A stretch of DNA of 64,000 bases, from the NCBI RefSeq assembly GCF_002150005.2, contig NZ_MSPP01000002.1, forward strand, positions 372,001 through 436,000. The letters run 5' to 3'. The DNA is from Marivivens niveibacter. Lineage in GTDB: Bacteria; Pseudomonadota; Alphaproteobacteria; Rhodobacterales; Rhodobacteraceae. How positions within the stretch are numbered: the stretch's first letter is position 1; each line of letters starts with the position of its first letter. The position numbers and the translations under genes are program-made. Shown here piece by piece: positions 3,440 to 53,143 of the stretch. The notes below the pieces were generated by a model that saw only the letters and a list, made by a program, of their open reading frames with translations, did not search any database and was not told the DNA's origin.

Positions 3440-4307
3440 CGGCCTCGCTGCGCAGCCATTTGATGAACGTGGCGCGTTTAGATGACACAGACTCTTTGCG
3501 AGTTACGATGTAATATCCCACACCGCGCGGTTTCGTGCGGGCGATGGGAATGATCGTTCCTGCGTCCAGCTCTGCCTTGACCAGTGGTTCCATCAATACC
3601 GCAATGCCTGATCCTGTTGCCAATGCGGCGCGGACGCTGCCCATTGTGGGCAGACTGCGAATGGTTGATTGATCGTCTAGCCACCCTTCCTCTTTCGCCC
3701 ATTCGATCGGCTCCAGATGGTTTTCATCGAAAAGCCAATCCATTTTGCTTAGATCGCCGTCCATCAGGCGGGGGATATCGCGCACAATCTGGGCAGAGCC
3801 GCAAATGACAAATCGCGCTTCGGTTAGCAATTGATTGTCCGTCCCTGCCCAATTGCCCCGTCCGTAGCGAATGGCCAGATCAACGCCGTCAGATTGGAAA
3901 TTAACCAGATCATGCGACGTTCGGATCGCGAGTGGAATATCGGGGTGTTTGGACCAAAACCGCGGTAGCCGAGGCATCAGCCAGTTCTCAGCGAAATTCG
4001 ACGTTGTCGATATAACCAGCGGCGCATCAGTTTTGTCCGCCGTTAAATCACGAACCGCAGAAATAATCGTACCAAACCCAAGGTTCAGTTCAGCGGACAG
4101 TTTTTGACCAGCTGCAGTCGGGACCATGCGGTTGCCCTGACGTTTGATCAATGGCTCTCCGAAATAGTCATGAAGAGCGCGGATATGTTGGGCAATCGCC
4201 GCGTGGGTGACGTTTAATTCAGTCGCTGCTGCCGTCAGATTGCCAGTCCGACAAGCCGATTCAAACGCGCGCAGCGCAGCCAATGATGGGATGTTGTGCC
4301 AGTCCAT
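3432..4307 (-). CDS. LysR-family transcriptional regulator (GcvA-like)
   Basis: The N terminus (residues about 5-65) is a LysR winged helix-turn-helix with LAALRAFESACRTGNLTAAATELNVT split over two helices, and the remainder is a periplasmic-binding-like effector domain. The wording AAIAQHIRALHDYFGEPLIKRQGNRM resembles the GcvA subgroup. The 291-aa length is normal. The gene is convergent with regA (8-bp overlap) and divergent from a 55-residue ORF at 4403. A LysR-type T-N11-A palindrome lies 3 bp upstream of its start codon, suggesting autoregulation. The effector and targets cannot be read from the sequence. Confidence 0.9.
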   Translation of the reverse strand: MDWHNIPSLAALRAFESACRTGNLTAAATELNVTHAAIAQHIRALHDYFGEPLIKRQGNRMVPTAAGQKLSAELNLGFGTIISAVRDLTADKTDAPLVISTTSNFAENWLMPRLPRFWSKHPDIPLAIRTSHDLVNFQSDGVDLAIRYGRGNWAGTDNQLLTEARFVICGSAQIVRDIPRLMDGDLSKMDWLFDENHLEPIEWAKEEGWLDDQSTIRSLPTMGSVRAALATGSGIAVLMEPLVKAELDAGTIIPIARTKPRGVGYYIVTRKESVSSKRATFIKWLRSEAVI

Positions 4308-22048: not shown

Positions 22049-23031
22049 CAGTCACCATCCGATGCGTTAAACCCAGCCGAGATTCCCATCACCAGCCCGA
22101 TTTCATTGCTGACGCCCGCGCCGATGGCATCCACGTTTTGTCCCATAATTTGCAGCAGCAGCCAGGCTTGGGTATCGGTTTCGATATTAGCAAAGCTGGG
22201 GTCGGTCACCCGATCCGCTGTTTTATGCAATTCGCCCAGCGCGGCGGTTGTGGCGGGCAGGTCCGCGCCCATCAACAGGTGCGCTTGTTCAACCATCGCA
22301 TCCGCCGATAAAACGATATTGCGCAGCGCCCGATCTGACCGCCACGCATTCGCACGGGTTTCGCGGGGGCGATCAAAGGTGCCTAGCGGGCGGTTCACAT
22401 TCTGGATCGTCAGGTTTTCCAGCCCCGACACGATCTGGGTATAGAACGTGGCAAAGGCGTGCTCTTCGTCGATCACTGGCGTACTCACGCCATCGCCTTC
22501 GCCCAACATGATCGGCGCATAATCGTTTGCCCAGCCGTTCGATTGGCGGGCAACCTCGGCGCTGAAATCGGCGGTGATTTGTTTCAGCAGGTCGCAGGTG
22601 TAATCATCAGCGCCATATCCGTTGAAACGATCATCAAACACCAGCATTTCGATCGACATCAGGCCGCGCGCAGCAATCGACATCGTCGCGTATTCGTCCG
22701 CATCGTAGGCGATCGGGTCCTGATCCGCGATCAAATCGGCCAAGGTGCGGGGGATAAACCCGCGATCATCAGGCCAAAATTCGATATTCAGCGTGCCGTT
22801 TTCTGTGGGGCCTAATTTCAGGTTCCGCACGTTCAACCAATGATCAAAGGCATCGTTGTAATAGGGTGCGACGTTTTCGGGCGAACAATCAGCAGCCGTT
22901 GCATCGGCCATAGTCGCGGCGGATGCGGCAAAGGTATCCCACGACGGCAGGATGTAGTCATTCAGCAAGCTATCAACATTTGCTGCCGCAGGGGTGGCGA
23001 AGGCGATGGTGAATAGGGTGGCGCGGATCAT
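22048..23031 (-). CDS. Imelysin-family periplasmic protein (second copy)
   Basis: A signal peptide (residues 1-17, ending TPAAA) is followed by a single imelysin-type helical domain. Imelysins (IrpA, ICMP, EfeO relatives) are periplasmic iron-acquisition proteins. The usual GxHxxE motif appears altered here (ARGLMSIEMLVF, with Met-Ser in place of the His context), so metal binding may differ from the other copy at 25286. It is coupled by an ATGA overlap to the di-haem oxidoreductase and by 1 bp to the DUF1513 gene. Confidence 0.83.
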   Translation of the reverse strand: MIRATLFTIAFATPAAANVDSLLNDYILPSWDTFAASAATMADATAADCSPENVAPYYNDAFDHWLNVRNLKLGPTENGTLNIEFWPDDRGFIPRTLADLIADQDPIAYDADEYATMSIAARGLMSIEMLVFDDRFNGYGADDYTCDLLKQITADFSAEVARQSNGWANDYAPIMLGEGDGVSTPVIDEEHAFATFYTQIVSGLENLTIQNVNRPLGTFDRPRETRANAWRSDRALRNIVLSADAMVEQAHLLMGADLPATTAALGELHKTADRVTDPSFANIETDTQAWLLLQIMGQNVDAIGAGVSNEIGLVMGISAGFNASDGD

Positions 23032-24575
23032 AGGCTCTCCAAAAATGCGATAAGAGCATCGCGGTCGGTTTTTGGCATGTCGATAACGGCGTCACGATGC
23101 GGCGCAGCTTCGCCGCCGTGCCATAGGACAGCCTCTAGGATCGAACGGGCGCGGCCGTCATGCAATAGATTAACGGCGCCGCTGACTTGTTCGGTCATGC
23201 CAATACCCCACAGGGGCGCGGTGCGCCATTCGGTGCCTGTGGCGCGGGCTTCGGGGCGGTGGTCGGCCAATCCTTCGCCCATGTCGTGCAATAGAAAATC
23301 AGAATAGGGCCAGATCAACTGGAACGACTGTTCTGGGCGATCCTCTAGCCGCGAGGTCACGAATTTCGGCATGTGGCAGGATGCGCAGCCGGTGTCATAG
23401 AACACCTCTTTGCCGGCCAAAACTTGCGGGTCGTCCAGATCGCGGCGGGCAGGGACGGCCAAGTTGCGTGAATAGAAAGTGACTAGATCTAGGCCGATCT
23501 CATCAACCTCGAACCCGTCTTGGGCATCGTCATTACCGTGGCGCGCGTTGATGCAATCAGCCTGACCCACCGTGCATTCGCCCCAAGGGTTCGGGCTAAG
23601 AGGGCTGGAAATGCCGATATCACCGGCAAAAGCATCCGCCGACTGTTGTTTGATCGTCGGATTACCCGCCTTGAGCCCGAAACGGCCCAGCATGGGTTGG
23701 TCGAATTCCGTCGACCAGACGATATTTGGGCGGCCTGAAATGCCGTCGCCATCCGCATCATTTTCATCAGCGTTTGCCAGAATATCGGCAGCTGGGATCG
23801 CTTCGATCAGGCCAAGGCCGATCATTTGCGGCGCAATACGGGGGGACAGCATCGCGTCGGGATGCAAGTCGCCATATCCCAGATCAGCCGCCGTATAGGT
23901 TGGGCTGCGCAAGGTCGCGGTTTCCCCATCGCTTAGTTCGATTTCGATGTCTTCGTACTGGATATCCAGACGGTATTCAGCGTTGTGCCCCGCGACTGCA
24001 AAATCTTGCAGCTGGAACCCATAGTTCGGATCGGCAGCCGTTGGGTGGAACCCTTCGATGGCTTCGATCTGTTCGTCATAGCTGCCCGGGATCGAAATCC
24101 GTAGGAACAGGGAAACGGCGTTATCATCGGGGCCTTCTGGAGTGTGACCACGGCCATCTTTGATATGGCAGTTTTGGCAGCCGCGCGCGTTATACAGCGG
24201 GCCTAAACCATCGGAGGCCAAGGTAGACGAAGGCGACGATACCCAGATTTTGCGGAATAACCCGTTGCCGACCTTGAAATCTAATTCGCCTTCGAAGCCG
24301 ATGTTCGCTGACGGCTGCGAAAAGGCATCGGCATTGGTGCGGGCGCGTACGGTCGCGGCGCCAGCGGGATTTTCTTCGAACCGTTCTGGGGCTGAGAAAT
24401 CTGTGGTCGGCGCAGTGACCGCCGCGATCCGCGCGGCTTCGTCGCTGGTGCGTGGAATAACATTTAGATGAATATCTTGCAGATCGTCGTATGTGACAGT
24501 CTGAGCAAAAGTTGCGCTGCCCGTAAGGGCAACGCAAAGCGCAAGTTTATTCGGCTTGGTCCATCGTGGACGCAT
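23028..24575 (-). CDS. Di-haem c-type oxidoreductase (DHOR family)
   Basis: A signal peptide (ending ATFA before QTVTYDD) is followed by a large periplasmic domain with two haem-c motifs, CQNCH and CASCH. The family is related to di-haem cytochrome c peroxidases and is annotated as thiol oxidoreductase or DHOR; the partner imelysins suggest a role in iron oxidation/reduction during uptake. The start is uncertain: I chose ATG 24575, which places the signal peptide at the N terminus. This lies inside the 3' end of bfr (29-bp overlap, other frame); ATG 24587 is the alternative with the closer AAGGG. Confidence 0.87.
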
Positions 24576-25032
24576 TGAGCAGGGCATACCCTTCGGCTCC
24601 CAATCGGTCGTGTAGGTCAAGTTGAGTCTCAAGAAAGTCGATATGCCCTTCTTCGTCGGTCAGCAATTCCTCGAACAACTTCATCGACACATAATCGCCA
24701 ACGGTTTGGCAGTACGTGCGTGCCTCAGCGTACAAAGCGCGGGCTTCTTTTTCCGCAGCCAAATCCGCCTCTAGCGTTTCTTTGGGTGTTTCGCCGATAC
24801 GCAGTGCATCCAATTTCTGTAGATTTGGGTGCCCACCCAAGAACAGAATGCGTGCGATCAGTTTGTCCGCGTGATGCATTTCTTCAATGCTTTCTTCGCG
24901 GCTTTTGGCGGCCATTTTTCCTAGCCCCCAGTCTTCTTGTAGTCGGTAATGCAGCCAATACTGGTTAACGGCTGTTAGTTCGGACCGAAGTGCGGTGTTG
25001 AGAAACTCAACGACTTTTGCGTCGCCCTTCAT
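24547..25032 (-). CDS. bfr: Bacterioferritin
   Basis: Bacterioferritin stores iron in a 24-mer shell. The ferroxidase ligands E18, E51, H54, E94, E127 and H130 are identifiable, and Met52, the haem-b ligand, is present in EEMHHADKL, so this is a haem-binding Bfr. The 161-aa length is normal, with a short C-terminal extension that overlaps the di-haem gene. ATG 25032 follows AGGAG and lies within the last 26 bp of bfd. Its place in an uptake operon links storage to import. Confidence 0.95.
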
Positions 25033-25273
25033 TGTTGTGCTCCTGTGCTGGTGCGGATCTTAGTCCGCGTAGATGGCTGGGTACACCTAGGTTATCATTG
25101 GATCGCATTGTGGAAAGGAAAAGCGACATGCAATTTCCGCAATCTGCCGCTTTGCCTAAGGCGCGATATACTTTTCCCGGAGTGATGATCGTCCGTTCAT
25201 CCGATGCACGCATCCAGTCGATGGCGGCATGGATGTCGCGGTCCGAAATATTCTGACAGCTACAGACGATCAT
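25007..25273 (-). CDS. bfd: Bacterioferritin-associated ferredoxin
   Basis: Bfd is a [2Fe-2S] protein that reduces Bfr-stored iron for release. The CSC near residue 4 and CGNC near residue 46 give the family's CxC-X31-34-CxxC cluster site. At 88 aa it is longer than the usual 60-70, the extra basic tail arising from the overlap with bfr. Adjacent bfr supports the call. Confidence 0.92.
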
Positions 25274-25285
25274 CGTAATTACTCC

Positions 25286-26548
25286 TTATTGGAAAACAGC
25301 GTCTGGGTTGTCCAAGCTGTCCGAACCTTCGAACGCGATTGCGTCCAGGCCTAGCGCTGCAACAACTTTTTCAATGCTGCGGGTTTGGTCGATCAGGCCG
25401 TTTACGGCGCCCATGACCAGTGCTTCGCCTTCGGCGTTGCCGCGTTCCAGCATCATATCGTACGAGAATCCGTTTTCTGCGGCCTCAACAATGTCGCCCA
25501 GCGCAGCAACGGTAGTGTTCAGTTTCGCAGTCAGTTCAGCGTCCAATTCAGGGTTCGCTGCTGCAACCAGTTCGGACAGGGACGGGCCAGACACAACGGT
25601 GCCGTCTACGCGGGTGTAGGAGCCCAGATATACGTTCTGAACGCCCAGACCGTCGTAGTAGTGCGAATTATGCGTGTTGTCGGAAAAACAATCGTGCTCT
25701 TCTTCTGGGTCATTGAGCATCAGGCCCAGACGCATACGTTCACCAGCCTGTTCACCGTAGGACAGCGAACCCATACCGGTCAGGATCGCGATGATGCCTG
25801 CGTTTTCGTCAGCGGTCAGCTCTGCGCGGGCTTCGCCTTCGGCGGCCCAAGCGGCGGTGATGAATTCCAGATCGGATACCAGTAGATCGGTTGCTGCGAT
25901 TAGGTAATCGCCGCGGCGGTCACAGTTGCCGTTGGTGCAATCGTCGCCATCTGCGTAGTCGGTGTATGGACGGTCGCCAGCGCCAGCGTCGGTGCCGTTC
26001 AAATCTTGGCCCCACAGCAGGAATTCAATCGCGTGGTAGCCACGTGCGACGTTGGTTTCGATACCGTCAGCTTCGTTCAGGCTGTCGGCGATCAGTTCGG
26101 GGGTGATGTTGGTCGCGTCGATATCAACGCCTGCAACGGTAAAGGTCGGGTTCGCAATAACGTTCAGCGCTGCGAATTCGTTTTCGTCGGTTGGGCCGCC
26201 ATAGGACGCATCCACATAGTCGATCAGGCCTTCGTCCAGCGGCCAAGCGTTTACCAGGCCTTCCCAGTCGTCAACAATCGCGTTGCCGAAACGGAAAACT
26301 TCGGTCTGTTGGTAAGGAACGCGCGCGTCCAGCCATGCCGAACGTGCAGCCGCCAGCGTGTCTTCGGATGGGTTTGCGACCAGTTCGTTTACGGCAGCTT
26401 GCAAAACTTTCGCGGTTGCAAGGCTGTCAGCATAGCCTGCTTCGGCGATGTTCGCATAGGTGTCCAGAACGGCAGCGTTGTCAGCTGCGACCGATGCGGT
26501 CGCTGAAATTGCCAAAACAGCCGAGGTGGCCAAAAGTGTACGGTACAT
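25286..26548 (-). CDS. irpA: Imelysin-family iron-regulated protein (IrpA-like)
   Basis: The 420-aa protein has a clear signal peptide (cleavage after ATASVA, residue 21) and the imelysin domain with the GxHxxE motif intact (GYHAIEFLLWGQD, near residue 170). Other conserved parts are YADGDDCTNGNCDRRGDYL and GERMRLGLMLNDPEEEHDCFSDNTH. Members bind iron in the periplasm and are induced by iron limitation. It sits 12 bp upstream of bfd and 10 bp downstream of the cysteine-rich gene, all on one transcript. The symbol is by family analogy. Confidence 0.9.
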   Translation of the reverse strand: MYRTLLATSAVLAISATASVAADNAAVLDTYANIAEAGYADSLATAKVLQAAVNELVANPSEDTLAAARSAWLDARVPYQQTEVFRFGNAIVDDWEGLVNAWPLDEGLIDYVDASYGGPTDENEFAALNVIANPTFTVAGVDIDATNITPELIADSLNEADGIETNVARGYHAIEFLLWGQDLNGTDAGAGDRPYTDYADGDDCTNGNCDRRGDYLIAATDLLVSDLEFITAAWAAEGEARAELTADENAGIIAILTGMGSLSYGEQAGERMRLGLMLNDPEEEHDCFSDNTHNSHYYDGLGVQNVYLGSYTRVDGTVVSGPSLSELVAAANPELDAELTAKLNTTVAALGDIVEAAENGFSYDMMLERGNAEGEALVMGAVNGLIDQTRSIEKVVAALGLDAIAFEGSDSLDNPDAVFQ

Positions 26549-26558
26549 GTTGTCCCTT

Positions 26559-27032
26559 TCAATGCAGCGTAGGAGGGGTATTCAGATCAGCGGACATCAT
26601 CATCCGCCGGAATGCGATGCCGACCTGTTGTGCCAGGTCAGCCATGGGCAGGGCCAAATCAGCCCGCACAATAAGGGATGCAATCAATGCTGCGTCTTCG
26701 CGGGCACCTTCGCCAGCAAGCGCAACCAGATTTGCAAAACAAGATTCATCAGCGCCAAGGCAGCTGCAGGTCAATGAATGACGCATTAAAGGGCGGCGGC
26801 CATAAGTGGTGCAGCTTTGGCATAGTTCGTTAAATGCGCCTAAAGCGGCTTCGCCTTGGTCAATGCCCAGGGTCGACAAGAAATCCATGCGCAGGCGATC
26901 AGCACCATTTGCACCGTCGCACCACATACGAAAATACAGCACGGCGGCCGCCTCGACCGGATCTAGGTCGGCCATTTTGCCAACGGGAGCGCCGCCACGG
27001 GGCGTATGGGGTGTATTCGACAGGTCGGACAT
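26559..27032 (-). CDS. Cysteine-rich protein of unknown function, first gene of the iron operon
   Basis: I do not recognise this 157-aa protein. It has no signal peptide or membrane helix, and contains seven cysteines: one in RMWCDG, then LCQSC and HSLTCSCLGADESC. This arrangement could hold a metal or Fe-S cluster. The rest is predicted helical. It is the promoter-proximal gene of the operon with imelysin, bfd, bfr and di-haem oxidoreductase, so an iron-sensing or iron-insertion role is a reasonable guess. ATG 27032 precedes an inverted repeat (27074-27098) that may control it. Confidence 0.72.
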   Translation of the reverse strand: MSDLSNTPHTPRGGAPVGKMADLDPVEAAAVLYFRMWCDGANGADRLRMDFLSTLGIDQGEAALGAFNELCQSCTTYGRRPLMRHSLTCSCLGADESCFANLVALAGEGAREDAALIASLIVRADLALPMADLAQQVGIAFRRMMMSADLNTPPTLH

Positions 27033-35660: not shown

Positions 35661-35726
35661 TCGCGATTAATTTCCCCGAAACCTTTGGATCATAGCCCTG
35701 ATTGCGGGTGAACAAAGGTGGATAGA

Positions 35727-36524
35727 ATGGCGGTTGGAACCAACGCGCCGGTCATTATCAAACGCAAAAAAATGGTCGGCGGTGATGGCCATCACGGCGG
35801 CGCGTGGAAAGTGGCCTATGCGGATTTTGTAACGGCGATGATGGCGTTCTTTATGCTGATGTGGCTACTGAACGCGACGACAGAACAGCAACGCAAGGGT
35901 ATTGCGGATTATTTCGCACCAACAATCCCTCTGGCGCGTGTATCCGCCGGAGGCGACGGTGCGTTGGGCGGAGAGGACGTTTTTTCGCGCAACATGCAAA
36001 TTCAATCGGGTACGGGCGGCGTGGGGAACAGTGATGGCATGCCGCCGAATGAAACCGATTCTTTAGCCGAATTTGCCGCGATGATTGCTGGCCAAACCGG
36101 CGAAGCGTTATTTGCAGAGAACGAATTGCGGCACATTGTGACGTCGATCACCGACGAAGGGCTGGTTATCGATATTTTCGCGACACCGTCAGAGCCGATC
36201 TTTGTTGATCGCACTGCTGAGCCCACTCCGATTTTGCTGGAAATATTAGATTCTGTAGGTGCCGCTGCGCAGATGGTCCAGAACGAAATATCGGTTCATG
36301 CTCATCATGCGACGCAACCTGTTGTGGTGCGCGATCATATCGTTTGGGATGTTTCGCTGGCTCGCGCGGGTCAGGTCCGTCAGTTATTAGAGGCCGAAAA
36401 CATTGCGCCAAAACGTTTCGTTCGTGCAGTTGGTCACGCGGACCGCGATCCCGCAGAATTTGTACCCACATCAGTTCGGAATAACCGTATTAGGATCGTT
36501 TTTCTGCGGTCCGATCTCCGTTAG
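35727..36524 (+). CDS. motB: Flagellar motor protein MotB
   Basis: MotB anchors the stator to peptidoglycan and carries the proton-binding Asp. The N-terminal region KVAYADFVTAMMAFFMLMWLLNATTEQQRKGI contains that Asp (YADF) and one helix. The C-terminal OmpA-like domain is recognisable (WDVSLARAGQVRQLLEAENI, VRNNRIRIVFLR). ATG 35727 with AAAGGTGG upstream is preferred to GTG 35718. motA is not in the window. The protein looks intact although the locus is damaged further down. Confidence 0.9.
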   Translation: MAVGTNAPVIIKRKKMVGGDGHHGGAWKVAYADFVTAMMAFFMLMWLLNATTEQQRKGIADYFAPTIPLARVSAGGDGALGGEDVFSRNMQIQSGTGGVGNSDGMPPNETDSLAEFAAMIAGQTGEALFAENELRHIVTSITDEGLVIDIFATPSEPIFVDRTAEPTPILLEILDSVGAAAQMVQNEISVHAHHATQPVVVRDHIVWDVSLARAGQVRQLLEAENIAPKRFVRAVGHADRDPAEFVPTSVRNNRIRIVFLRSDLR

Positions 36525-36585: not shown

Positions 36586-38037
36586 ATGACGATTTCCTCT
36601 TCTCTTAACGCGTCGGTCGCGGGGTTGGCGGCAAATGCGTCGCGACTTGCGTCGATTTCGGACAATATTTCGAACGCGTCGACCTATGGGTACAAACGGG
36701 CCGAAACCGATTTCAATTCGATGGTCGTATCGAGCGCCGAAGGTACATATTCGGCAGGCGGCGTGCGTACGACGACCACGCGTGCGATTGATGAAATGGG
36801 GTCTTTGGTGTCGACATCCAGCGCTCTGGATTTGGCCGTCAGCGGACGGGGTATGTTACCTGTGACAACCTCGGCATCTGTAGCTGACGGTGGTAATGAC
36901 ACTCCGTTTCTTATGACGACGACCGGCAGTTTCTCAACGGATGAAGATGGCTATTTGACCACCTCTAGCGGTCTGGTTTTGATGGGTTGGCCCGCAAATG
37001 CGGATGGGTCTATTTCGACCCACGCCCGCGATACCGCCGAAGGGTTAGAGCCAATTTTGATCAATGTCAGTGGTTTTGCGGGCGAGCCGACGACGGCCAT
37101 CGAAATGCAGGCCAATTTACCCGCCACATCAACTGCCAATGGGGCGGAAGGCGCAGCCGAAGAATTGACCGTCGAATATTATGACAATCTGGGAAAGACG
37201 GAAAATCTGGGGATAGAGTTTGTTCCGATCGTCGCCGAAGAAGGATCATCCAACACTTGGACGATGGTCATCACGGATAGCGCCTCTGGTGATGCGGTTG
37301 TGGGTGAATACACGTTGACCTTTGACGACACGCGCGATCTGGGCGGGACGCTGGAGTCTGTCACGGCTGTGACCGGTGGCGCCTATGATGCCACTAATGG
37401 CACGATCACGGTCACTGTAGATGGGGGACCGATTTCTATCGATATTGGAACGCTAGGTGATACCGATGGCCTGACACAGCTTTCCGATACGTTTCAGCCA
37501 GGTACAGTGACAAAAGACGGGTCCGAAGTCGGCAATCTGACGACGGTTGGCGTGGATGAAAACGGCAACGTAACGGCGTCGTTTGATACAGGCGTTACGC
37601 GGGTGCTGTATCAGGTGCCATTGGTGGATGTGGCTAATGTGAACGGATTAGAGACGGTCGGTGGTCAGGCCTATCGCATCACCAACAGTTCCGGGTCGAT
37701 GTATTTGTGGGATGCCGGCGATGGTCCGACAGGTGAAATCGCGTCTTATGCCCGCGAAGAATCTACAACCGATGTCGCGAGCGAACTCACAGACCTGATC
37801 CAGACACAGCGTGCCTATTCATCGAATGCAAAGGTGATCCAGACCGTCGCGTTGTCTTTGGCCGAGTTCACCTCTTTACCGGTCGAAATCGTGTCTTGTA
37901 CTTTGGACAGATCAGAGTTGATGGTTTTCAGGGTGCTTAGCGCCACCATGGCGCCATTGTTGGTCAGAATGCTAGACATAAAGGATGTCCCTATAATGTG
38001 GCGCTTTGCGCCTGGTTTTGTCTTTGTTCGGTTTTGA
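36586..38037 (+). CDS. flgE: Flagellar hook protein FlgE with replaced C terminus
   Basis: Residues 1-421 are a normal hook protein: N-terminal MTISSSLNASVAGLAANA and NISNASTYGYKRAETDF rod/hook signatures, and C-terminal TDLIQTQRAYSSNAKVIQTV. In intact FlgE this is followed by a short helix of the form D-x-M-L-x-x-x-x-N-x-K-R. Here, from 37849 on, the frame runs antisense through the 5' end of a flagellin gene for 62 non-native residues to the stop at 38037. The lost helix belongs to the terminal coiled-coil domain needed for polymerisation, so a working hook is unlikely. Confidence 0.9.
   Translation: MTISSSLNASVAGLAANASRLASISDNISNASTYGYKRAETDFNSMVVSSAEGTYSAGGVRTTTTRAIDEMGSLVSTSSALDLAVSGRGMLPVTTSASVADGGNDTPFLMTTTGSFSTDEDGYLTTSSGLVLMGWPANADGSISTHARDTAEGLEPILINVSGFAGEPTTAIEMQANLPATSTANGAEGAAEELTVEYYDNLGKTENLGIEFVPIVAEEGSSNTWTMVITDSASGDAVVGEYTLTFDDTRDLGGTLESVTAVTGGAYDATNGTITVTVDGGPISIDIGTLGDTDGLTQLSDTFQPGTVTKDGSEVGNLTTVGVDENGNVTASFDTGVTRVLYQVPLVDVANVNGLETVGGQAYRITNSSGSMYLWDAGDGPTGEIASYAREESTTDVASELTDLIQTQRAYSSNAKVIQTVALSLAEFTSLPVEIVSCTLDRSELMVFRVLSATMAPLLVRMLDIKDVPIMWRFAPGFVFVRF
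37839..37979 (-). pseudogene. Flagellin 5' fragment (47 codons) fused tail-to-tail to flgE
   Basis: The minus strand from ATG 37979 reads MSSILTNNGAMVALSTL, then SKVQDTISTGKEVNSAKDN and ATVW: an unmistakable flagellin N terminus. After Trp47 the flagellin frame enters flgE sequence and stops at TAG 37815-37817 after 7 non-native residues. The remaining more than 200 residues of flagellin are absent. The bases CCAGACCGTC (37839-37848) fit both genes, so the junction lies within this shared stretch. A ribosome site AGGGA lies upstream of the ATG. Confidence 0.9.
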
Positions 38038-38169: not shown

Positions 38170-38499
38170 TCAGGCTTTGCGCAATATTTGCGGCGCCGTG
38201 GGAACATGTTTGGCGAACTGTCCATCCGAACCATAACTTGCGAAATTTTCCTGTTGTTCTTTCGCATTGGTCTGATTGGCGATTGAATCATCGATCCCGC
38301 GTTTCGCCGCCTCTATGACTGCCATTGTGCGTCTTGCGGCTGTTTTGATCGCCGTCAGATCATCTGCATCTAGATCGCTGGGTAAGTGCATTGATTCCGT
38401 GATCCGGGCCAATGCGTCCAATGTGGTGAATTTGCCTTCGGTTATGGCTGCGCGTGTGCGTGCAAGCTGGGCAATTATGTCCATGGCACGTTTATCCAT
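38170..38499 (-). CDS. FlgN-like flagellar export chaperone (putative)
   Basis: The 109-aa helical protein shows the FlgN-type layout: TRAAITEGKFTTLDALARIT (the E-G-x4-L spacing) and TMAVIEAAKRGIDDS after it. FlgN escorts hook-junction proteins FlgK and FlgL, both missing in this window. Its start overlaps cheL by 8 bp. Similarity is a pattern judgement; it may instead be another short flagellar helical protein. Confidence 0.55.
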   Translation of the reverse strand: MDKRAMDIIAQLARTRAAITEGKFTTLDALARITESMHLPSDLDADDLTAIKTAARRTMAVIEAAKRGIDDSIANQTNAKEQQENFASYGSDGQFAKHVPTAPQILRKA

Positions 38500-38713
38500 C
38501 TGCCCGCTCCGCTAATGCATGAAACAAGGACTCGGTCAGGCCAATCCCGCCACTTTTTACGATCGCTCGTGCTTGGGCTTCGTGCATGAAAGTCAAAAAT
38601 TGATCCCCGCTATTTCCGGTTTCGCCGACACCGGAATGTTTCAGCATCTGGGATAGAAACGCAGTTTCGATTTTTTCTGCTGCTGATCTTATTGGGGATT
38701 GTGTCGCAATCAT
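38492..38713 (-). CDS. cheL: Rod-binding protein CheL (FlgJ N-terminal type)
   Basis: This 73-aa protein matches the rod-binding domain: AAEKIETAFLSQMLKHSGVG, then GDQFLTFMHEAQARAIVKSGGIGLTESLF. In alphaproteobacteria it is a stand-alone protein that helps rod assembly, unlike the two-domain FlgJ. It is divergent from fliK across 106 bp, and the two flank a direct repeat. Confidence 0.87.
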   Translation of the reverse strand: MIATQSPIRSAAEKIETAFLSQMLKHSGVGETGNSGDQFLTFMHEAQARAIVKSGGIGLTESLFHALAERADG

Positions 38714-38771: not shown

Positions 38772-38819
38772 GTAATCATCGTCAGGTTTAGTGGCATCAG
38801 AACCAGTGCGGAGATTTTG

Positions 38820-39677
38820 ATGCAGGTCAGTTTAGTTCAGTCATCTTTATCAGGTCTGCCGAATGACGGGGGCCTCTGTGCCACAGATGAGATGTGTGAT
38901 GCGTTTCTACAAACAATGGATCAGCTGGAAACTGACGGCGAAACAGACACTGATTCAGCGGAAGTTGATAAGAGCCCAGAACCCGAGCTGGACGTCGACG
39001 AGAATGATCCGCTGGCGATCCCTGCGCCTCAGATTCCACCGGTAGATCCAAAGCCGGATAGGGAAGGCAGAACCACCACAGATATCGAGGCACAGGATTT
39101 CGGCAAAGATCATCAATTTGATGGCGCCATAACAAGAATAGAGACTAAATCGGCCCAAGTTGACCAAAAATTTCTGGATATAACTGGCTTTGAGGCCAGC
39201 ATGGACCACGCAGTTGCGCCAAACGACGGCCCAGAGAAAGGCCCGCCTGTGTCGCTAGAACGCACGATTGTACGGTCCGAAGTCGTACCAAAAATTGTAC
39301 CAAACACGACCGAGGCTCAGGTTGTGAAACAGGTCCTGTCCGCGCCGTTGTCTGATGGAAATGTGACTGAAATCGCTCTTGATCCCGAAGAGTTGGGGCG
39401 GGTGAGGATGCAGATGATCACGCATGAAACGTCAGTCCAAATCGTTATTGCAGTAGAGCGGCCAGAAACCGTGGATTTGATGCGAAAACATCTGGATCTG
39501 CTGACAAACGAATTCAAAGAGTTGGGGTTTGGTGACGTGAGTTTAGACTTCGCGTCCCACGACGACACGGACGACTCCCGCCAAGGTACTAGCCATGGCA
39601 AAGCTGAAACCCAGACCACCGAGATAATTCAACCCGTTTTGCGCGCCTCCGATGGACGCGTAGACATCAGGCTATAG
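38820..39677 (+). CDS. fliK: Flagellar hook-length control protein FliK
   Basis: FliK measures hook length and switches export specificity. The first about 150 residues are acidic and low-complexity, as usual; the C-terminal Flg_hook domain is clear: LDPEELGRVRMQMITHETSV and LDLLTNEFKELGFGDVSLDF. I chose ATG 38820 (GGAG 7 nt upstream) rather than the overlapping TTG. 285 aa is short but within the family range. flgD follows after 7 bp. Confidence 0.87.
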   Translation: MQVSLVQSSLSGLPNDGGLCATDEMCDAFLQTMDQLETDGETDTDSAEVDKSPEPELDVDENDPLAIPAPQIPPVDPKPDREGRTTTDIEAQDFGKDHQFDGAITRIETKSAQVDQKFLDITGFEASMDHAVAPNDGPEKGPPVSLERTIVRSEVVPKIVPNTTEAQVVKQVLSAPLSDGNVTEIALDPEELGRVRMQMITHETSVQIVIAVERPETVDLMRKHLDLLTNEFKELGFGDVSLDFASHDDTDDSRQGTSHGKAETQTTEIIQPVLRASDGRVDIRL

Positions 39678-39684
39678 GGACCCA

Positions 39685-40332
39685 ATGACAACGATTGATA
39701 CATCCACTTTGGCAACATCAACGGGGACAACGTCGTCTGATACCAATTCGGTCATCAGTTCCGATTTTGAAACCTTTTTGACAATGCTGACGGCGCAAAT
39801 GGAAAACCAGGATCCTCTTAATCCGGTCGATTCCACCGATTATGCCACGCAATTGGCGACATTTTCGTCGGTTGAACAGCAGGTGCTGACCAACGATCTA
39901 TTATCGGACCTGACGGGCATGTTCGCAACATCGTCTATGTCAGAACTGGCCAATTGGGTCGGTAACGAAGTTCGCGTGTCTGCGGCGGCATATTATGGCG
40001 GGACAAACAGCGTAACGGTCGCGGCAGAGCCCGATAGCGCCGCAGATAGTGCGGAATTGGTTGTTTATGACAGCACCGGAACAGAGGTCGATCGGCTGTC
40101 GATCGACACCAACGCGGCATTGATAGAATGGGAGGGAATGTCCGAAGGCAGCTACAGTTTTGCCGTGCTAAGCTATCAAGACGGGGTTCAGATTAACGCT
40201 GAAACGGCCGATGTATATGTAGCGGTAACCGAGGTGCGCAGCGCAGACGATGGCGTCGCATTGGTGTTGGAGTCAGGTGATGTTGTGGCGGCCACTGATG
40301 TGACCGCCTTGCGTGATCCAAGTTATGGTTAG
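39685..40332 (+). CDS. flgD: Flagellar hook capping protein FlgD
   Basis: FlgD caps the growing hook. The N-terminal signature is complete: DFETFLTMLTAQMENQDPLNPVDSTDYATQLATFSSVEQQV. A central FlgD Ig/Tudor-like region follows. It ends in a 4-bp overlap with the convergent ubiB. It forms a two-gene unit with fliK; both look intact. Confidence 0.93.
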   Translation: MTTIDTSTLATSTGTTSSDTNSVISSDFETFLTMLTAQMENQDPLNPVDSTDYATQLATFSSVEQQVLTNDLLSDLTGMFATSSMSELANWVGNEVRVSAAAYYGGTNSVTVAAEPDSAADSAELVVYDSTGTEVDRLSIDTNAALIEWEGMSEGSYSFAVLSYQDGVQINAETADVYVAVTEVRSADDGVALVLESGDVVAATDVTALRDPSYG

Positions 40333-44866: not shown

Positions 44867-45344
44867 GTTGCGCGGATGCCACCAAATTTTGGTTTTCTAA
44901 GCGGTCAAAAAAGGCCGAGAGATTCTTTTTCCAGAAAGTCAGAGTCAAGGACGTTGTTGTGTTGAAGGGAGCGCCCTGACGTTGCTAGTTTCACCCAAGC
45001 GATTCACATCGTTCCTGGGGGAGCATCGTGAAAGCGATCTTGAATAGCGTCAGATTTGATCTGACTTGCTGCTGTTCTTTTATCGTTACTCCTGATCGAT
45101 CTTTCGATCAGCGCAGCTAGGCAGCCGATGTCATTGATATCGGACAGCTTTCTGTACCCCGGACGGATTGCGTCACACGCCCAACGAGGCGCTGACGCGG
45201 GCCGTATATGATAGGATGAAAACGACATAGCGTTCGGAGTGGGACTCTGAGCGGTGGGAAATTTTTGTCCGTTTGAACAGTGTGGAGTGGACTGTGGGGG
45301 TCTGCGAGCGAAGATTTAAAGACTGGGATAGGTACGGGACAAAA
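44867..45344 (+). promoter_or_regulatory. dnaA upstream region: palindromes and GANTC sites
   Basis: This 478-bp non-coding stretch precedes dnaA. It holds three inverted repeats: GTCAGAT-ttg-ATCTGAC (45049-45065), CTGATCGA-tctt-TCGATCAG (45092-45111) and CCGAT-N9-ATCGG (45125-45143). It has four GANTC (CcrM methylation) sites at 44921, 44942, 45001 and 45243. I found no perfect TTATCCACA DnaA box on either strand; the closest is TGTGGAGTG near 45281. It likely carries the cell-cycle-controlled dnaA promoter; origin activity is not shown. Confidence 0.6.
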
Positions 45345-46697
45345 ATGACTATGTGGGGCTCAATCCGCGAGACACTTAAAAACAATATTGGCACAGGCAA
45401 CTTTACGAACTGGATTGAACCGCTCGAATTTCTGCATGTTGACAATGGCGTTGCGTATTTCAATGCGCCGACCAAATTCTTTGGCGACTATGTGAGCCAG
45501 AATTTTGCAGATCAGATCATCTATCATTTGAACCGCAATGGTGCGCAGACGGAACGTTTGTCTTTTGCTGTATCCGCGGCTGCCAATAACCCACGCCCAA
45601 ATGTTGAGCCGAAGCCTGTGGCGAATCCGGTCCGCATGCCGTCCGAAGGTTCGGTTATTCCAGATGTCCCGCTGGATCCACGTTTTACCTTTGATAATTT
45701 CGTTGTCGGTAAACCAAACGAATTGGCCCACGCTGCTGCCCGCCGCGTCGCCGAAGGTGGCCCAGTCACCTTTAACCCGCTGTTCCTGTACGGTGGTGTT
45801 GGTCTGGGTAAAACGCACCTTATGCACGCGGTTGCCCATGAAATCCGCCGCCGTAACCCAGAAAAAACAGTTCTATATATCTCGGCTGAACAGTTCATGT
45901 ATCGCTTCATCTCGGCGCTGAAAGACCGCAAGATGATTGACTTTAAACAACTGTTCCGTTCGGTCGACGTTCTGATGGTCGACGACGTTCAATTCATTGC
46001 TGGCAAGGATTCCACTCAAGAGGAGTTTTTCCACACCTTCAACGCACTGGTTGAGGCACGCAAACAGATCATCATCTCTGCGGATCGCGCCCCAGGCGAA
46101 ATCAAGGACATGGAAGAGCGTATTCAGACCCGTCTGCAATGCGGTCTGGTCGTTGACCTGCACCCAACCGATTACGAACTGCGTGTCGGTATTCTGCAGA
46201 CCAAAGCAGAACTATACGCCGAACAGTTCCCAGGTTTGGAAATTGATCCAGGCGTATTGGAATTCCTTGCGCACAAAATCACCACCAACGTCCGCGTTCT
46301 AGAAGGCGCCTTGAACCGTCTGTTCGCGATGGCGTCGCTGGTTGGCAAACCGATCACGCTAGAAATGACGCAAGACTGTTTGGCCGACCTGTTGAAATCG
46401 TCCGAACGCCGCGTGACCATTGATGAAATCCAGCGCAAAGTTGCTGAACATTTTAACATCCGTCTGTCGGATCTGATCGGCCCGAAACGCCTGCGTGCCT
46501 ATGCGCGTCCGCGTCAGGTTGCGATGTGGCTGGCAAAGCAGCTGACCAATCGGAGCTTGCCAGAAATCGGACGTAAATTCGGTGGCCGTGACCATACAAC
46601 CGTGATGCATGGTGTGCGCCGGATTGACGAACTTTCGGAAAAAGATTCCCAGTTGGCCGATGAACTAGAGCTGCTGCGCCGCACCTTGGCGTCTTGA
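45345..46697 (+). CDS. dnaA: Chromosomal replication initiator DnaA
   Basis: DnaA opens the replication origin. Domains in order: N-terminal domain I (WGSIRETLKNNIGTGNFTNWIEPLEFL), AAA+ domain with Walker A GGVGLGKTHL, Walker B VDDVQFIAGK, sensor motifs, and the C-terminal DNA-binding domain with RDHTTVMHGVRRI. I chose ATG 45345 (GGGAC upstream), which starts at the family's first conserved residues; an upstream ATG at 45273 would add 24 atypical residues. 450 aa. Confidence 0.97.
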   Translation: MTMWGSIRETLKNNIGTGNFTNWIEPLEFLHVDNGVAYFNAPTKFFGDYVSQNFADQIIYHLNRNGAQTERLSFAVSAAANNPRPNVEPKPVANPVRMPSEGSVIPDVPLDPRFTFDNFVVGKPNELAHAAARRVAEGGPVTFNPLFLYGGVGLGKTHLMHAVAHEIRRRNPEKTVLYISAEQFMYRFISALKDRKMIDFKQLFRSVDVLMVDDVQFIAGKDSTQEEFFHTFNALVEARKQIIISADRAPGEIKDMEERIQTRLQCGLVVDLHPTDYELRVGILQTKAELYAEQFPGLEIDPGVLEFLAHKITTNVRVLEGALNRLFAMASLVGKPITLEMTQDCLADLLKSSERRVTIDEIQRKVAEHFNIRLSDLIGPKRLRAYARPRQVAMWLAKQLTNRSLPEIGRKFGGRDHTTVMHGVRRIDELSEKDSQLADELELLRRTLAS

Positions 46698-46805
46698 CGC
46701 TGGTCGCGCAGTATTCAACAGTCATAAAAAGAGCTTGAGCCTTGGAATTAAACCGTTAGGTTTCATTTTCCGGCCAGGTCGGGTCCGACAAGCGGAGCGA
46801 GAGAC

Positions 46806-47924
46806 ATGAAATTCAGTATCGAACGGGCGGTATTGCTCAAGGCTGTGGCACAAGCGCAGTCAGTTGTGGAACGCAGGAACACAATTCCAATCCTCGCCAA
46901 CGTTCTGATCGAGGCCGAAGGCAATAACGTACAATTCCGCGCGACCGATTTGGATATCGAAGTCGTGGACAAAGCCGACGCAATGGTTGAACGCGCTGGC
47001 GCAACCACAGTCGCTGCGGTCACCTTGAACGAAATCGTACGTAAATTGCCAGACGGCGCATTGGTTACCCTGACCGAAGACGGCGTCAAAGGTCGCCTGA
47101 CCATCGAAGCGGGTCGTTCAAACTTTAGCCTGGCGACCCTGCCCAAAGAAGATTTCCCCGTGATGGCGTCGTCGGACTATACCACGAACTTCTCGGCGCC
47201 TGCGCCGGTGCTGCGTCGTTTGTTCGATAAATCGAAATTCGCGATTTCTACCGAAGAAACCCGTTATTATCTGAACGGCGTTTACATGCACATCGCTGAT
47301 GGCGAAGACGGCCGCGCGCTGCGTTGCGTTGCGACTGACGGTCACCGTCTGGCCCGCATCGATGCAGCAATGCCAGAAAACGCAGGCGATATGCCGGGTG
47401 TGATTGTGCCGCGTAAAACCGTTGGCGAATTGCGTAAACTGCTGGATGACGACGAAATGCAGATTGCTGTATCTGTGTCGGAAACCAAAGTTCGTTTTGC
47501 GACCCCGAACATTACCCTGACATCCAAGGTGATCGATGGAACCTTCCCTGATTACACCCGCGTGATCCCTCAAGGGAACACCCGTAAATTGGAAGTCGAC
47601 GCCAGCGATTTCGCTAAGGCCGTTGACCGTGTGGCGACCGTCTCGTCCGAACGCAGCCGCGCTGTCAAACTGTCGCTGGACGAAGATCGTCTGGTCCTGT
47701 CCGTGAACGCGCCAGACAGCGGTGCCGCGACCGAAGAACTGGCCGTGGCTTATGATGACGAACGTCTGGAAATCGGTTTCAACGCGAAATACCTGCTGGA
47801 AATCGCATCCCAAGTGGACCGCGAAAACGCGGTGTTCCTGTTCAACTCCTCGGGCGATCCGACCTTGATGCGCGAAGGCAATGATACTTCGGCGGTCTAT
47901 GTCGTGATGCCAATGCGCGTGTGA
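46806..47924 (+). CDS. dnaN: DNA polymerase III beta subunit (sliding clamp)
   Basis: The clamp gives the polymerase processivity. Conserved: MKFSIERAVLLKAVAQAQSVVERRNTIPILANVL, the internal EETRYYLNGVYMH, and the C-terminal PMRV. 372 aa is standard. It follows dnaA by 108 bp with its own AGCGGAG ribosome site, and precedes recF by 40 bp. Confidence 0.97.
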   Translation: MKFSIERAVLLKAVAQAQSVVERRNTIPILANVLIEAEGNNVQFRATDLDIEVVDKADAMVERAGATTVAAVTLNEIVRKLPDGALVTLTEDGVKGRLTIEAGRSNFSLATLPKEDFPVMASSDYTTNFSAPAPVLRRLFDKSKFAISTEETRYYLNGVYMHIADGEDGRALRCVATDGHRLARIDAAMPENAGDMPGVIVPRKTVGELRKLLDDDEMQIAVSVSETKVRFATPNITLTSKVIDGTFPDYTRVIPQGNTRKLEVDASDFAKAVDRVATVSSERSRAVKLSLDEDRLVLSVNAPDSGAATEELAVAYDDERLEIGFNAKYLLEIASQVDRENAVFLFNSSGDPTLMREGNDTSAVYVVMPMRV

Positions 47925-47964
47925 CGCAGGGCGCGACCATGTTTGAATATTCAGGAGGCCGCGA

Positions 47965-49065
47965 ATGAGCGGCCTTTCTGTTGACCATATTCTGCTGTCG
48001 CATTTTCGATCCCACAAACGGGTCGAGATTGATTTTGATGGTCGGCCCGTTGCGATTTTCGGGCCTAACGGCGCAGGCAAAACCAACATTCTAGAGGCGA
48101 TTTCGCTATTGTCCCCCGGGCGCGGTTTGCGCCGTGCGGCAGTGGACGACATTGTGCGCAAACCCGAAAGTCTGGGATGGAAAATGGCGGCTGATCTGCG
48201 GTCTGGCCACAATTCCCATGAAATCGAAATCTGGGCCGAACCAGAAAAAACGCGCAATCTGCGGATTGATGGCAAAGCGTCTGCGCAAACCGCATTGGGC
48301 CGCATTGCGCGGGTGTTGTGGCTGGTGCCATCTATGGACCGCCTGTGGATCGAAGGCGCCGAAGGCCGCCGCCGTTTTCTGGACCGCATGACGATGAGCT
48401 TTGAACCCGCCCATGCCGAGGCGGTTCTGGCTTATGAAAAATCGATGCGCGAACGCAATCGGTTGCTCAAGGATATGGTGCGAGATGCTCATTGGTATGC
48501 CGCGCTAGAGGCGCAGATGGCGACTGCAGGGGCCACGATCATGGCTGCGCGGCGCGATGCTGTGTTAAATTTGATGACGGCCCAATCACAGGCTGAAACG
48601 GCGTTCCCCGTGGCGGAACTGACAGTTTTGAACGCTGAGGGCACCCCCGAAACCGAAGCCGAATTGCGCAATGCATTCGCCGCAGGGCGTTCGCGCGATA
48701 TGGCGGCAGGGCGCACCCTAACTGGTCCGCATCGCAGCGATCTGGGCGCAGTATTTGCGGCGAAATCCATGCCCGCGGCGGATTGTTCTACGGGCGAACA
48801 AAAGGCGCTTTTGATCTCATTAATCCTTGCCAATGCACGTGCCTTGGCCGCGCAGATCGGCATGGCGCCGATCCTTTTGCTGGACGAGGTCGCTGCGCAT
48901 CTGGATGCAGGGCGTAGAGCGGCGCTCTATGATGAAATCTGCGCGCTGGGATCGCAGGCGTTCATGACGGGCACGGGCCCTGAACTATTCACCGAATTGT
49001 CCGACCGCGCCCAAAACGTCGAAGTCACCGACCAAGGGGGCGCATCGCATGTTGCCAGCTTTTGA
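47965..49065 (+). CDS. recF: DNA replication and repair protein RecF
   Basis: RecF loads RecA at gaps. Walker A FGPNGAGKTN, the signature CSTGEQKALLISLILA and Walker B PILLLDEVAAHLD are visible; 366 aa. AGGAGG precedes ATG 47965. It is coupled with the following acetyltransferase gene, which starts 17 bp inside its end. Confidence 0.96.
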   Translation: MSGLSVDHILLSHFRSHKRVEIDFDGRPVAIFGPNGAGKTNILEAISLLSPGRGLRRAAVDDIVRKPESLGWKMAADLRSGHNSHEIEIWAEPEKTRNLRIDGKASAQTALGRIARVLWLVPSMDRLWIEGAEGRRRFLDRMTMSFEPAHAEAVLAYEKSMRERNRLLKDMVRDAHWYAALEAQMATAGATIMAARRDAVLNLMTAQSQAETAFPVAELTVLNAEGTPETEAELRNAFAAGRSRDMAAGRTLTGPHRSDLGAVFAAKSMPAADCSTGEQKALLISLILANARALAAQIGMAPILLLDEVAAHLDAGRRAALYDEICALGSQAFMTGTGPELFTELSDRAQNVEVTDQGGASHVASF

Positions 49066-49579
49066 AACGATCAATGAATTCGACCTGACCCCTGAAACTG
49101 AGGCAGAGCTGACGACCCTGCTGGACCTTGCCTTTTCGCCGGAATTTGGCGGGGCGTCCTATCATCAACAACGTCACAATGTGCGCCTAATTCAACGGTC
49201 CAAAGGCGCGATTGTCGGGCATTTGGCCATCACCTATCGCACCGTAAGGTTGGGTGAACAGCTGCTGGATATCGTAGGTCTGGCCGAGGTTGCGACCCAT
49301 CCCAACCATCGCAGCCAAGGGATCGCTGGCCATTTGGTGCGTGGAAGTATCGATTTCGCGCGCAAAGTAGGCGCTGATGCGATGGTTCTGTTTGGTGATC
49401 GGCCCGTTTATGCGGCGAACGGATTTCAGGCGAAACCCAACCCCCTGCGCTGGGTGGCGATGACAGACAAACGCACGGTCGCCATCGAGCATCAAACCGA
49501 TGACCTGATGGTTTTGCCCTTGAATAATCGGTCGTGGGACGATCACCTGACGCTGGATTTGTTAGGGAATAAATTTTGA
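49049..49579 (+). CDS. GNAT family N-acetyltransferase
   Basis: This 176-aa protein has the GNAT acetyl-CoA-binding motif A: LAEVATHPNHRSQGIAGHLVRGS, and a preceding acceptor region. The substrate is unknown (N-terminal amines of proteins or small molecules). It begins inside recF (17-bp overlap) and ends in a TGATG overlap with the VOC gene, so recF-GNAT-VOC-LysE are one transcript. Confidence 0.85.
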   Translation: MLPAFETINEFDLTPETEAELTTLLDLAFSPEFGGASYHQQRHNVRLIQRSKGAIVGHLAITYRTVRLGEQLLDIVGLAEVATHPNHRSQGIAGHLVRGSIDFARKVGADAMVLFGDRPVYAANGFQAKPNPLRWVAMTDKRTVAIEHQTDDLMVLPLNNRSWDDHLTLDLLGNKF

Positions 49580-50010
49580 TGACACCGCAGCGCGTGACTT
49601 TAATCACTTTGGGCGTTTCTGATCTGGAACGCGCAAAATCGTTCTATGAAACATTGGGGTGGCAGGTCACCGCCGAACAGCCCGGCGTCGCGTTTTATCA
49701 GATTAACGGAATGGCCTTGGGCCTGTTTCCGACCACTGAATTGGCCAAAGATCAGGGCCGCGAAGGCGCGCCGCTGGGTGTTGGCAACATGACGCTGGCG
49801 CAAAATTTTACAACAACGGACGAAGTCGATGCCGCATTCGACGCTGCGCTGGCCGCAGGGGCAACCGCGCTAAAACGGCCAGAGCCCGTATTTTGGGGCG
49901 GATATTCAGGCTACTACGCCGATCCTGATGGTCACGTATGGGAAGTCGCCCATAATCCCTTTTGGCCTTTGAATGAGGACGGCAGCCTGACCCTGCCTGT
50001 TGCTGAATGA
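49579..50010 (+). CDS. VOC (glyoxalase-like) family protein
   Basis: The 143-aa protein shows the vicinal-oxygen-chelate pattern: RVTLITLGVSDLERAKSFYETLGW, and YYADPDGHVWEVAHNPFWP with metal-ligand His and Glu. Possible activities include glyoxalase, dioxygenase and antibiotic resistance; none can be picked. Start ATG 49579 overlaps the GNAT stop; its end overlaps lysE by ATGA. Confidence 0.87.
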   Translation: MTPQRVTLITLGVSDLERAKSFYETLGWQVTAEQPGVAFYQINGMALGLFPTTELAKDQGREGAPLGVGNMTLAQNFTTTDEVDAAFDAALAAGATALKRPEPVFWGGYSGYYADPDGHVWEVAHNPFWPLNEDGSLTLPVAE

Positions 50011-50627
50011 CGCTATCGATCGGTGATCTGGCGCTCTATGCGGGCGCGTTGTTTGTTCTGTTCATGACGCCCGGCCCTGTGTGGGTCGGCCTGATCGCAC
50101 GGGCGATGTCGGGCGGGTTTCGGGCCGCGTGGCCGCTGGCGATGGGCGTGGTCGTTGGCGACGTGCTATGGTCTGTGCTGGCGATTTTGGGCGTCAGTTG
50201 GATCGTGAACCAATACGGTGGGTTTCTGACGGGCATCAAATATGTGGCCTGCGTGACCTTTTTGGTCATGGGGTACATGGTCATCAGGAATGCGGATAAA
50301 TCCATCAGCTCCGATAGCCGTTTGACCCGCCCGGGGATGATGGCGGGGTTCATCGCGGGGCTGGCCGTGATTTTGGGCAACCCAAAGGCGATCCTGTTCT
50401 ACATGGGGATGCTGCCGGGGTTTTTTGATTTGACCGCGCTCACCACGCCCGACATTGTCGCCATTGCCGCATTATCGGCCATTGTGCCGTTTGTCGGAAA
50501 CCTGATCATGGGGGCGTTTATCGGGAAAATACGGGCTTTGCTGACCTCGCCAAAAGCGCTGCGCAGGATGAACCTAACGGCTGGTTGGCTGCTAATCGCC
50601 GTCGGGGTCATTATCCCCTTTGTCTAA
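50007..50627 (+). CDS. LysE family translocator (amino-acid exporter)
   Basis: This 206-aa, six-helix protein has the LysE/RhtB pattern: FVLFMTPGPVWVGLIARAMSGGF and LAVILGNPKAILFYMGMLPGFF. It exports an amino acid or derivative; the substrate is unknown. Coupled to the VOC gene, 80 bp before gyrB. Confidence 0.88.
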   Translation: MTLSIGDLALYAGALFVLFMTPGPVWVGLIARAMSGGFRAAWPLAMGVVVGDVLWSVLAILGVSWIVNQYGGFLTGIKYVACVTFLVMGYMVIRNADKSISSDSRLTRPGMMAGFIAGLAVILGNPKAILFYMGMLPGFFDLTALTTPDIVAIAALSAIVPFVGNLIMGAFIGKIRALLTSPKALRRMNLTAGWLLIAVGVIIPFV

Positions 50628-50668
50628 CCGCAAAATATAGCGTCTTACCCGTGACAATCGCCCAGTAA

Positions 50669-53143
<2,475 letters not shown>

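Follow-up and report, generated by a model that had tools for sequence, protein, structure and literature searches.

The window analysed here is a stretch of 64,000 nt from a contig of Marivivens niveibacter, and in its middle lies what appears to be left of a fla1 flagellar gene cluster (Table 1). A single open frame runs from the flgE ATG at 36586 to a TGA at 38035–38037 and counts 483 codons from that ATG. As the preliminary description had it, this frame is native flgE to residue 421 and then runs for 62 residues antisense through a flagellin gene, which is borne out by the frame itself and by domain matches. V421 (37846–37848) is the last hook-like residue; in a profile search, Flg_bbr_C covers residues 391–421 and reaches only position 36 of the 46 in the profile, and the 12 C-terminal residues that are missing read DEMLQETTNIKR in most of the relatives read. 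On the minus strand, the ATG at 37979 starts a frame of 54 codons, whose residues 4–47 match positions 1–44 of Flagellin_N with E 2.5e-8 (E 3.7e-7 for this fliC 5′ fragment in the genome-wide search).

Table 1. Features of the fla1 remnant in the window, with the basis on which each was assigned.
Feature	Position	Strand	Basis
motB, fla1 stator, first gene of left remnant	35718..36524	+	MotB_plug E 1.6e-19; also upstream of flgE in relatives
flgE, fla1 hook protein, minus C-terminal 12 residues	36586..37848	+	70% identity with G006 (same genus) over residues 1-424; tails compared
Deletion junction	37847..37850	.	37847 from flgE, 37850 from fliC; codon 45 and comparison of fused/intact pairs
62-codon extension of the flgE frame	37849..38037	+	antisense to flagellin 5′ end and leader
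fla1 flagellin fliC, first 44 codons	37848..37979	-	Flagellin_N positions 1-44
End of truncated flagellin frame, codons 45-54 to TAG	37815..37847	-	antisense through flgE
Small gene at the flgN-like place of intact clusters	38170..38499	-	position alone
Small gene at the place named cheL in the preliminary description	38492..38713	-	weak rod-binding (FlgJ-like) match, PF10135 E 0.0017, below family cut-off
fliK, hook-length control, right remnant	38817..39677	+	Flg_hook E 6.3e-15
flgD, hook cap, last gene of right remnant	39685..40332	+	FlgD E 5.4e-19

The locus has the make-up of a fla1 remnant: motB-flgE stand to the left of the junction and fliC-flgN-fliK-flgD to the right, arranged as in intact clusters and with a ubiB-like gene close by, which follows flgD in the window as in many relatives. 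Here flgN counts by position; the gene at its place has no Pfam match, and tblastn found no match to the flgN-like gene of the intact relative G009 in the window. The names flgN and ubiB are presumed from position or from reading translations. At E 1e-70 no fla1-type FliF was found in this genome (G000), nor does it hold a second copy of the 2.2-kb locus. Further afield in the window we take the genes at 20984–27032, from their translations, to encode imelysin-type and di-haem proteins with a bacterioferritin, perhaps for iron uptake, and those at 58.6–64 kb to be a MarR-like regulator gene adjoining genes of a ring-hydroxylating dioxygenase pathway. The series at 45273–53143, which we likewise read as dnaA, dnaN, recF and gyrB, probably places the locus near the replication origin. 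In Phaeobacter inhibens, fla1 also lies near the origin, according to the excerpted text of Tomasch et al. 2025 (mSystems, PMC12363192).

The deleted block and its end points

In G009, a single-contig genome of the same family, the intact cluster has the order motB, flgE, flgK, flgL, flgI, fliP, fliN, fliH, fliF ... flhA, fliR, flhB, flgH, flgA, flgG, flgF, flgB, fliI, flbT, flaF, fliC, flgN-like, fliK, flgD, where several names are presumed from reading translations; G449, G184 and G464 keep this order. The preliminary description had suggested a comparison of gene order with relatives. Intact ones turned out to read motB-flgE-flgK-flgL-flgI ... flbT-flaF-fliC-flgN-fliK-flgD, which supports its claim that a deletion took the flagellin body, the terminal residues of FlgE and the genes between them. 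It had left the choice between deletion and inversion; since fliC is already on the minus strand in the G009 cluster and in other intact relatives, a plain deletion is sufficient and inversion was rejected. Judged from sequence comparison, the window locus is the fla1 cluster minus everything from the flgE end to flagellin codon 44. The break-to-break distance is 25.17 kb in G449, 25.40 kb in G439, 25.28 kb in G451 and 26.13 kb in G464, from which a deletion of about 25–26 kb would be expected in the window.

Of the 47 flagellin codons that had been described as intact, 44 stand up. Codon 45 is Thr in the window (ACG, 37847–37845), and it is Ala or Ser in all 57 named intact loci and in 72 of 72 loci of a wider intact set, which a few genomes entered twice; codons 45–54 are therefore flgE read backwards. 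V46–W47 look flagellin-like because CCAGAC of flgE gives GTCTGG on reverse reading. The ten bases said to be common to both genes, CCAGACCGTC, do lie at 37839–37848, and they are flgE's own: in the nearest intact flagellins found, those of G003 and G004, codon 45 is Ser, and it is therefore probable that the ancestral flagellin held fewer than all ten. From the relatives, we infer that the crossover in the window falls within about 37847–37850. Thr at codon 45, that is flgE's sequence, is found in 35 of 36 fused genes (a set without fused G304) and in none of the 72 intact loci.

Two pairs of closely related fused and intact genomes place the break at base level. Fused G438 and intact G439 share 96.1% identity across 12.5 kb of the left flank and 95.4% across 10.1 kb of the right one, and their divergence beside the junction is at the background level. 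In G439, flgE reads ATCCAGACCGTCGA before the break and TGAAATG after it, and the flagellin, in antisense, reads GCCCAGACGGCGGA before and ATTGTCC after; fused G438 has ATCCAGACCGTCGAATTGTCC, which switches from one to the other within GA, to the right of three mismatches at all of which it carries flgE's base. Between fused G415 and intact G449 (about 90% identity), flgE is matched to base 4073 and fliC from 29246. G454, G419 and G441 break at the same bases as G415, and G418 and G417 are compatible with them. The sequence is native right up to the junction in both pairs, and across genomes the break points agree to within 2–3 bp. The flgE frame reads Gln-Thr-Val there in 37 of 38 fused genomes and Gln-Thr-Ala in L174. 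The adjoining fliC codon 44 is mixed among fused genes (19 Ser, 17 Ala); it equals that of the nearest intact flagellin in 25 of 36, and in 8 of the 13 where this flagellin is at least 85% identical. Fused G411 has a rare Lys-Asp-Gly-Ser at this place, which also occurs in intact L195.

Distribution of the junction

The same join is present in 38 genomes, both isolates and MAGs, with distinct junction sequences, and the idea of a private lesion of the window genome was rejected on this account. The number comes from 39 fused sources, two of which have the same junction sequence, and one genome may carry two handles. G162 and G290, which carry the junction, are single-contig genomes. Within Marivivens it occurs in three of seven genomes (G000, G002 and G006), three others having an intact flgE and one no flgE. 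Limimaricola has five fused genomes among eight (one intact, two without), and Salipiger/Alloyangia four among 20 (16 intact). In the genus of Loktanella sp. 5RATIMAR09, six of 56 are fused, 35 have other flgE matches (the tails of 24 were read, and all 24 are intact) and 15 are without. Across the named genomes, the best 80 loci comprise 23 fused ones and 57 in which the flagellin runs on.

At the level of the family, fla1 flgE was found in 224 of 295 genomes (E 1e-60) and fla1 fliF in 199 (E 1e-70); 31 have flgE without fla1 fliF, and 11 of these carry the junction. A search of 394 family genomes with the flagellin fragment returned 19 matches at E 1e-17, of which 10 cross the junction and nine are intact flagellins; fused G161 and G162 fall below this limit. 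Reading of the 31 covered all except G052, G066, G096, G159, G254, G288 and G293. Four (G054, G122, G261, G263) keep motB-flgI with no fla1 gene in the fetched stretch beyond, and five (G049, G078, G083, G120, G267) stop at contig ends, G083 with part of fliF. Four other losses of fla1 have junctions of their own (G092, G137, G238, G241). In this family sample, the shared junction makes up 11 of the 15 flgE-retaining losses with a readable join inside the cluster.

The joins of the four separate losses (L123, L126, L127, L128) differ in kind: one links fliP with the stretch upstream of flgN, one links flgK codon 143 with a place near a ubiB-like gene, one links flgI codon 63 with flgD codon 51, and in one flgI is cut at codon 159. 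G092 was considered as a fliC break with another partner and rejected, as its join runs from within fliP to the region upstream of flgN and no fliC start was found.

Fused forms are scattered over the trees. One FlgE tree has 61 rows, of which 12 are fused; the fused label requires 11 changes on it, at least seven of them forced by starred branches; with shuffled labels the mean is 11.2, and 287 of 500 shuffles are as low as 11. The Salipiger/Alloyangia tree needs four changes for its four fused genomes, all forced, and fused G423 adjoins intact G503 there with support 100/98. A tree that takes in Yoonia, Limimaricola and others requires five changes for its 10 fused rows, with four of these changes forced, against a shuffled mean of 9.1. 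The label is clustered on this tree because four Limimaricola fall in one clade; the six fused Yoonia are interleaved with intact species. When more species are included, G439 (intact) and G438 (fused), both Limimaricola, come out as sisters and G439 is nested among five fused, where parsimony gives one loss and one regain, and a tree of the UbiB-like protein also makes G438 and G439 sisters within the genus. Since flgE belongs to the remnant, the FlgE trees could be misled by recombination.

The FlgE of intact G439 is accelerated (1.71 vs an interior mean of 1.06, sd 0.10), and MotB and the ubiB-like product stand at 1.33 and 1.25. Most interior flagellar genes of this genome are not accelerated. 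The FlgE of Limimaricola (L265, the flgE of G439, and L271–L274) has a long stem branch, and this holds also for the species whose cluster is intact. In a comparison of intact clusters, drawn from up to 16 genomes that have both flgE and flgL, the distances of FlgE show a poor correlation with the FlgK, FlgL and FlgI distances (rho 0.10, 0.20 and 0.32), and the latter three correlate mutually at 0.59–0.70; recombination at flgE would give such a pattern.

Proposed recurrent deletion and its alternatives

We regard a recurrent deletion hotspot in many lineages of Rhodobacterales as the best explanation, and give it about an even chance of being right. In each event, about 25–26 kb would be lost between the V-D codons near the flgE end and flagellin codon 44/45, so that flgK through the flagellin body disappear and motB, flgE′, fliC′, flgN, fliK and flgD are kept, mostly open. 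The mechanism we think most likely would begin with a break at a preferred place at the flgE end; the broken end would be healed onto the flagellin copy, with CCARAC and G(A) in register and the flgE end kept whole. The non-motile variant may then become fixed in lineages that can do without fla1, such as those with a second flagellar system. Counted in favour of recurrent deletion are the junction in 38 genomes, the tree scatter, the native flanks in both close pairs, the background-level divergence beside the G438/G439 junction, the lack of a recent import into the G449 interior from three relatives, and the four losses with junctions of their own. The excerpted text of Tomasch et al. 2025, moreover, describes fla1 as ancestral and as inherited strictly vertically, and its losses as sporadic and independent. 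On the other side, no mechanism was found, third positions have no strong peak at the break codons, and independent events that agree to 2–3 bp without homology are hard to credit; the clustered label, the nested and accelerated G439, the poor FlgE correlations and the 25 of 36 agreement at codon 44 count against it as well. The end points would have the precision of site-specific recombination if the events are independent, which we infer from the trees; how the deletions come about is conjecture on our part.

Alternatively, a single old deletion allele would have arisen once and then been maintained in several genera, or passed between them, with presence and absence as its two states. Its flanks would have been rewritten to the local sequence by recombination with intact alleles almost up to the junction. 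The spread would be by transformation or gene transfer agents, which are able to carry the short deletion allele and not 25 kb. The identity of the junction bases, with Thr45 in 35 of 36 and Gln-Thr-Val in 37 of 38, counts for this reading. Intact G439 and G449 among fused relatives, the accelerated FlgE of G439, the poor correlation of FlgE with interior distances and the imperfect agreement of codon 44 with the nearest intact flagellin also speak for it, and recombination over a long time could rewrite flanks. However, the flanks are native to within a few bases in two close pairs, codon 44 is mixed among fused genes, and the rare Gly-Ser of G411 is shared with an intact locus. A donor tract near the junction was sought in Yoonia with windows over flgE and both flanks and rejected, as fused sequences do not become more alike near the junction. 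A mobile element as the means of spread was rejected too: no carrier was found among phage records, viral contigs or the 30 listed of 174 plasmid record matches, all 30 of which end at residue 47/54. The strictly vertical history reported for fla1 in the excerpts of PMC12363192 also argues against a travelling allele. As for import of the cluster interior, the genes inside the intact G449 cluster diverge from three relatives no less than its flanks do, so that no recent import from those three is seen, and no close donor of the G439 interior was found among 30 intact genomes. Taken together, we lean towards new events; one old allele is less likely and yet a serious rival.

A further idea is put forward tentatively, as possible and less likely than not. 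Rhodobacterales may have a built-in, base-precise exit from fla1, either by dedicated cleavage or recombination or as an ancient allele kept across genera, which takes out 25–26 kb from the flgE end to the fliC end and leaves open remnants; lineages would leave swimming, and possibly re-enter it, through this exit.

The preliminary description had favoured microhomology, and an ordinary deletion at a 10-bp direct repeat, repeated by chance since both protein motifs are conserved, would be its general form. CCARAC does stand in the same register in flgE and fliC, where it may still help, and both copies are dictated by protein sequence. However, the match at the site (9 of 12 bases in G439, 7 of 12 in G449) is too ordinary for homology to explain the choice of break: of 15.9 million position pairs in two 4-kb regions, 27,879 in G439 and 280,238 in G449 match at least as well. 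Exact repeats of 13 bp (G439, a direct repeat) and 12 bp (G449) nearby were left unused, and in G438/G439 and G415/G449 the crossover shows 2-bp identity and no long perfect direct repeat. A further point against it is that 35 of 36 fused genes retain flgE's base at codon 45. We consider this explanation improbable and the claim of microhomology weak.

A strong recognition site was not evident either. Third positions at the break codons show no strong conservation peak over 73 intact flgE and 57 intact fliC genes; there is a mild dip in flgE to the left of the break, where windows at a distance of a few codons rank among its eight lowest (0.77 vs a mean of 0.89). No recombinase domain was found in the ten interior proteins of G449 that were scanned, and most of the remaining ones were matched by flagellar queries. 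Separately, third positions of flagellin codons 1–8 (MSSILTNN) are strongly conserved in 57 intact relatives (0.57–0.61 vs a mean of 0.84), which suggests that the gene start holds a signal for translation or in the mRNA.

Also improbable, slightly more so than the microhomology deletion, is a selected product, in which the truncated FlgE, the flagellin N-terminus and the other remnants are functional and the junction outlasts other deletions for this reason. The remnants have not gathered the stops and frameshifts of pseudogenes: 36 of the 38 fused genomes have an open flgE, and no stops were found in the matched parts of neighbour genes in 32 sources, by a method blind to frameshifts. A FlhA match is present in 13 of 32 fused genomes and absent from 19, some of them incomplete MAGs, and flgE is open in 17 of these 19; G006 retains other flagellar genes. 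As for the antisense tail, 24 of 38 genomes have 60 or more codons free of stops, and the other 14 have an earlier stop. Between the fused Alloyangia G423 and G431, dN/dS is 0.058 for flgE and 0.041 for the ubiB-like gene; the Limimaricola pair gives 0.46 and 0.19, and most other pairs are saturated or nearly so. The Alloyangia deletions look separate, however, and low dN/dS may predate them, so we claim no function for the remnants. Furthermore, two genomes, G290 (L117) and L145, both without a FlhA match, have a single frameshift each in flgE near codons 291–298, and selection could hardly fix a junction to the base. The remaining alternative, an assembly chimera, named as a refutation in the preliminary description, has no point in its favour and can practically be set aside, with 38 isolates and MAGs differing in sequence and none of the 11 fused genomes in the family sample having fla1 fliF.

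With respect to the cell, the loss of the filament and probably of the hook had been predicted for M. niveibacter. This does not follow. The suggested search for flagellin elsewhere in the genome found a second flagellar gene set on contig C1, with a flagellin complete in both its N and C domains, a FlgK-domain protein, a FlgL-like protein, FlgE and FlgD, as well as FliF, MotA, MotB, a sigma-54 gene and FlhA; going by these genes, the absence of filament and hook cannot be concluded.

Significance and known systems

The original observation thus holds, and half of its interpretation was right; what makes it of interest is that the break recurs at one base pair, and not the copy of the window. 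If recurrent mutation is the cause, evolution is channelled here, and rate and mechanism are measurable in motile laboratory strains. If one old allele is the cause, a presence/absence polymorphism extends across genera, which would be remarkable for bacteria. In practice, the junction offers an easy way to test genomes and MAGs for fla1 loss by sequence, and it is a warning against taking an open flgE as evidence of a hook.

That fla1 loss in this marine group is frequent and scattered is already known. The losses in Tomasch et al. 2025 resemble ours in cluster, gene order, scattered loss and vertical ancestor; in its excerpted text, that study counts losses without dissecting them, does not mention a shared base-precise junction, and has no occurrence of "remnant" or "truncated" (PMC12363192). 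A literature search limited to open-licence full texts found no description of the shared junction.

Programmed or site-specific excision, as in the nif and skin elements and by DNA invertases, likewise has exact end points and, as here, removes a large block. Unlike in those systems, the ten scanned interior proteins of G449 held no recombinase domain, no strong recognition site was found, and we know of no reciprocal junction. Hotspot deletions at fragile DNA, reportedly described under parallel evolution in a 2019 study in Genome Biology, differ in that the end points here agree to 2–3 bp across genera without a known fragile sequence; the likeness is that a trait changes repeatedly through mutation at a preferred place.
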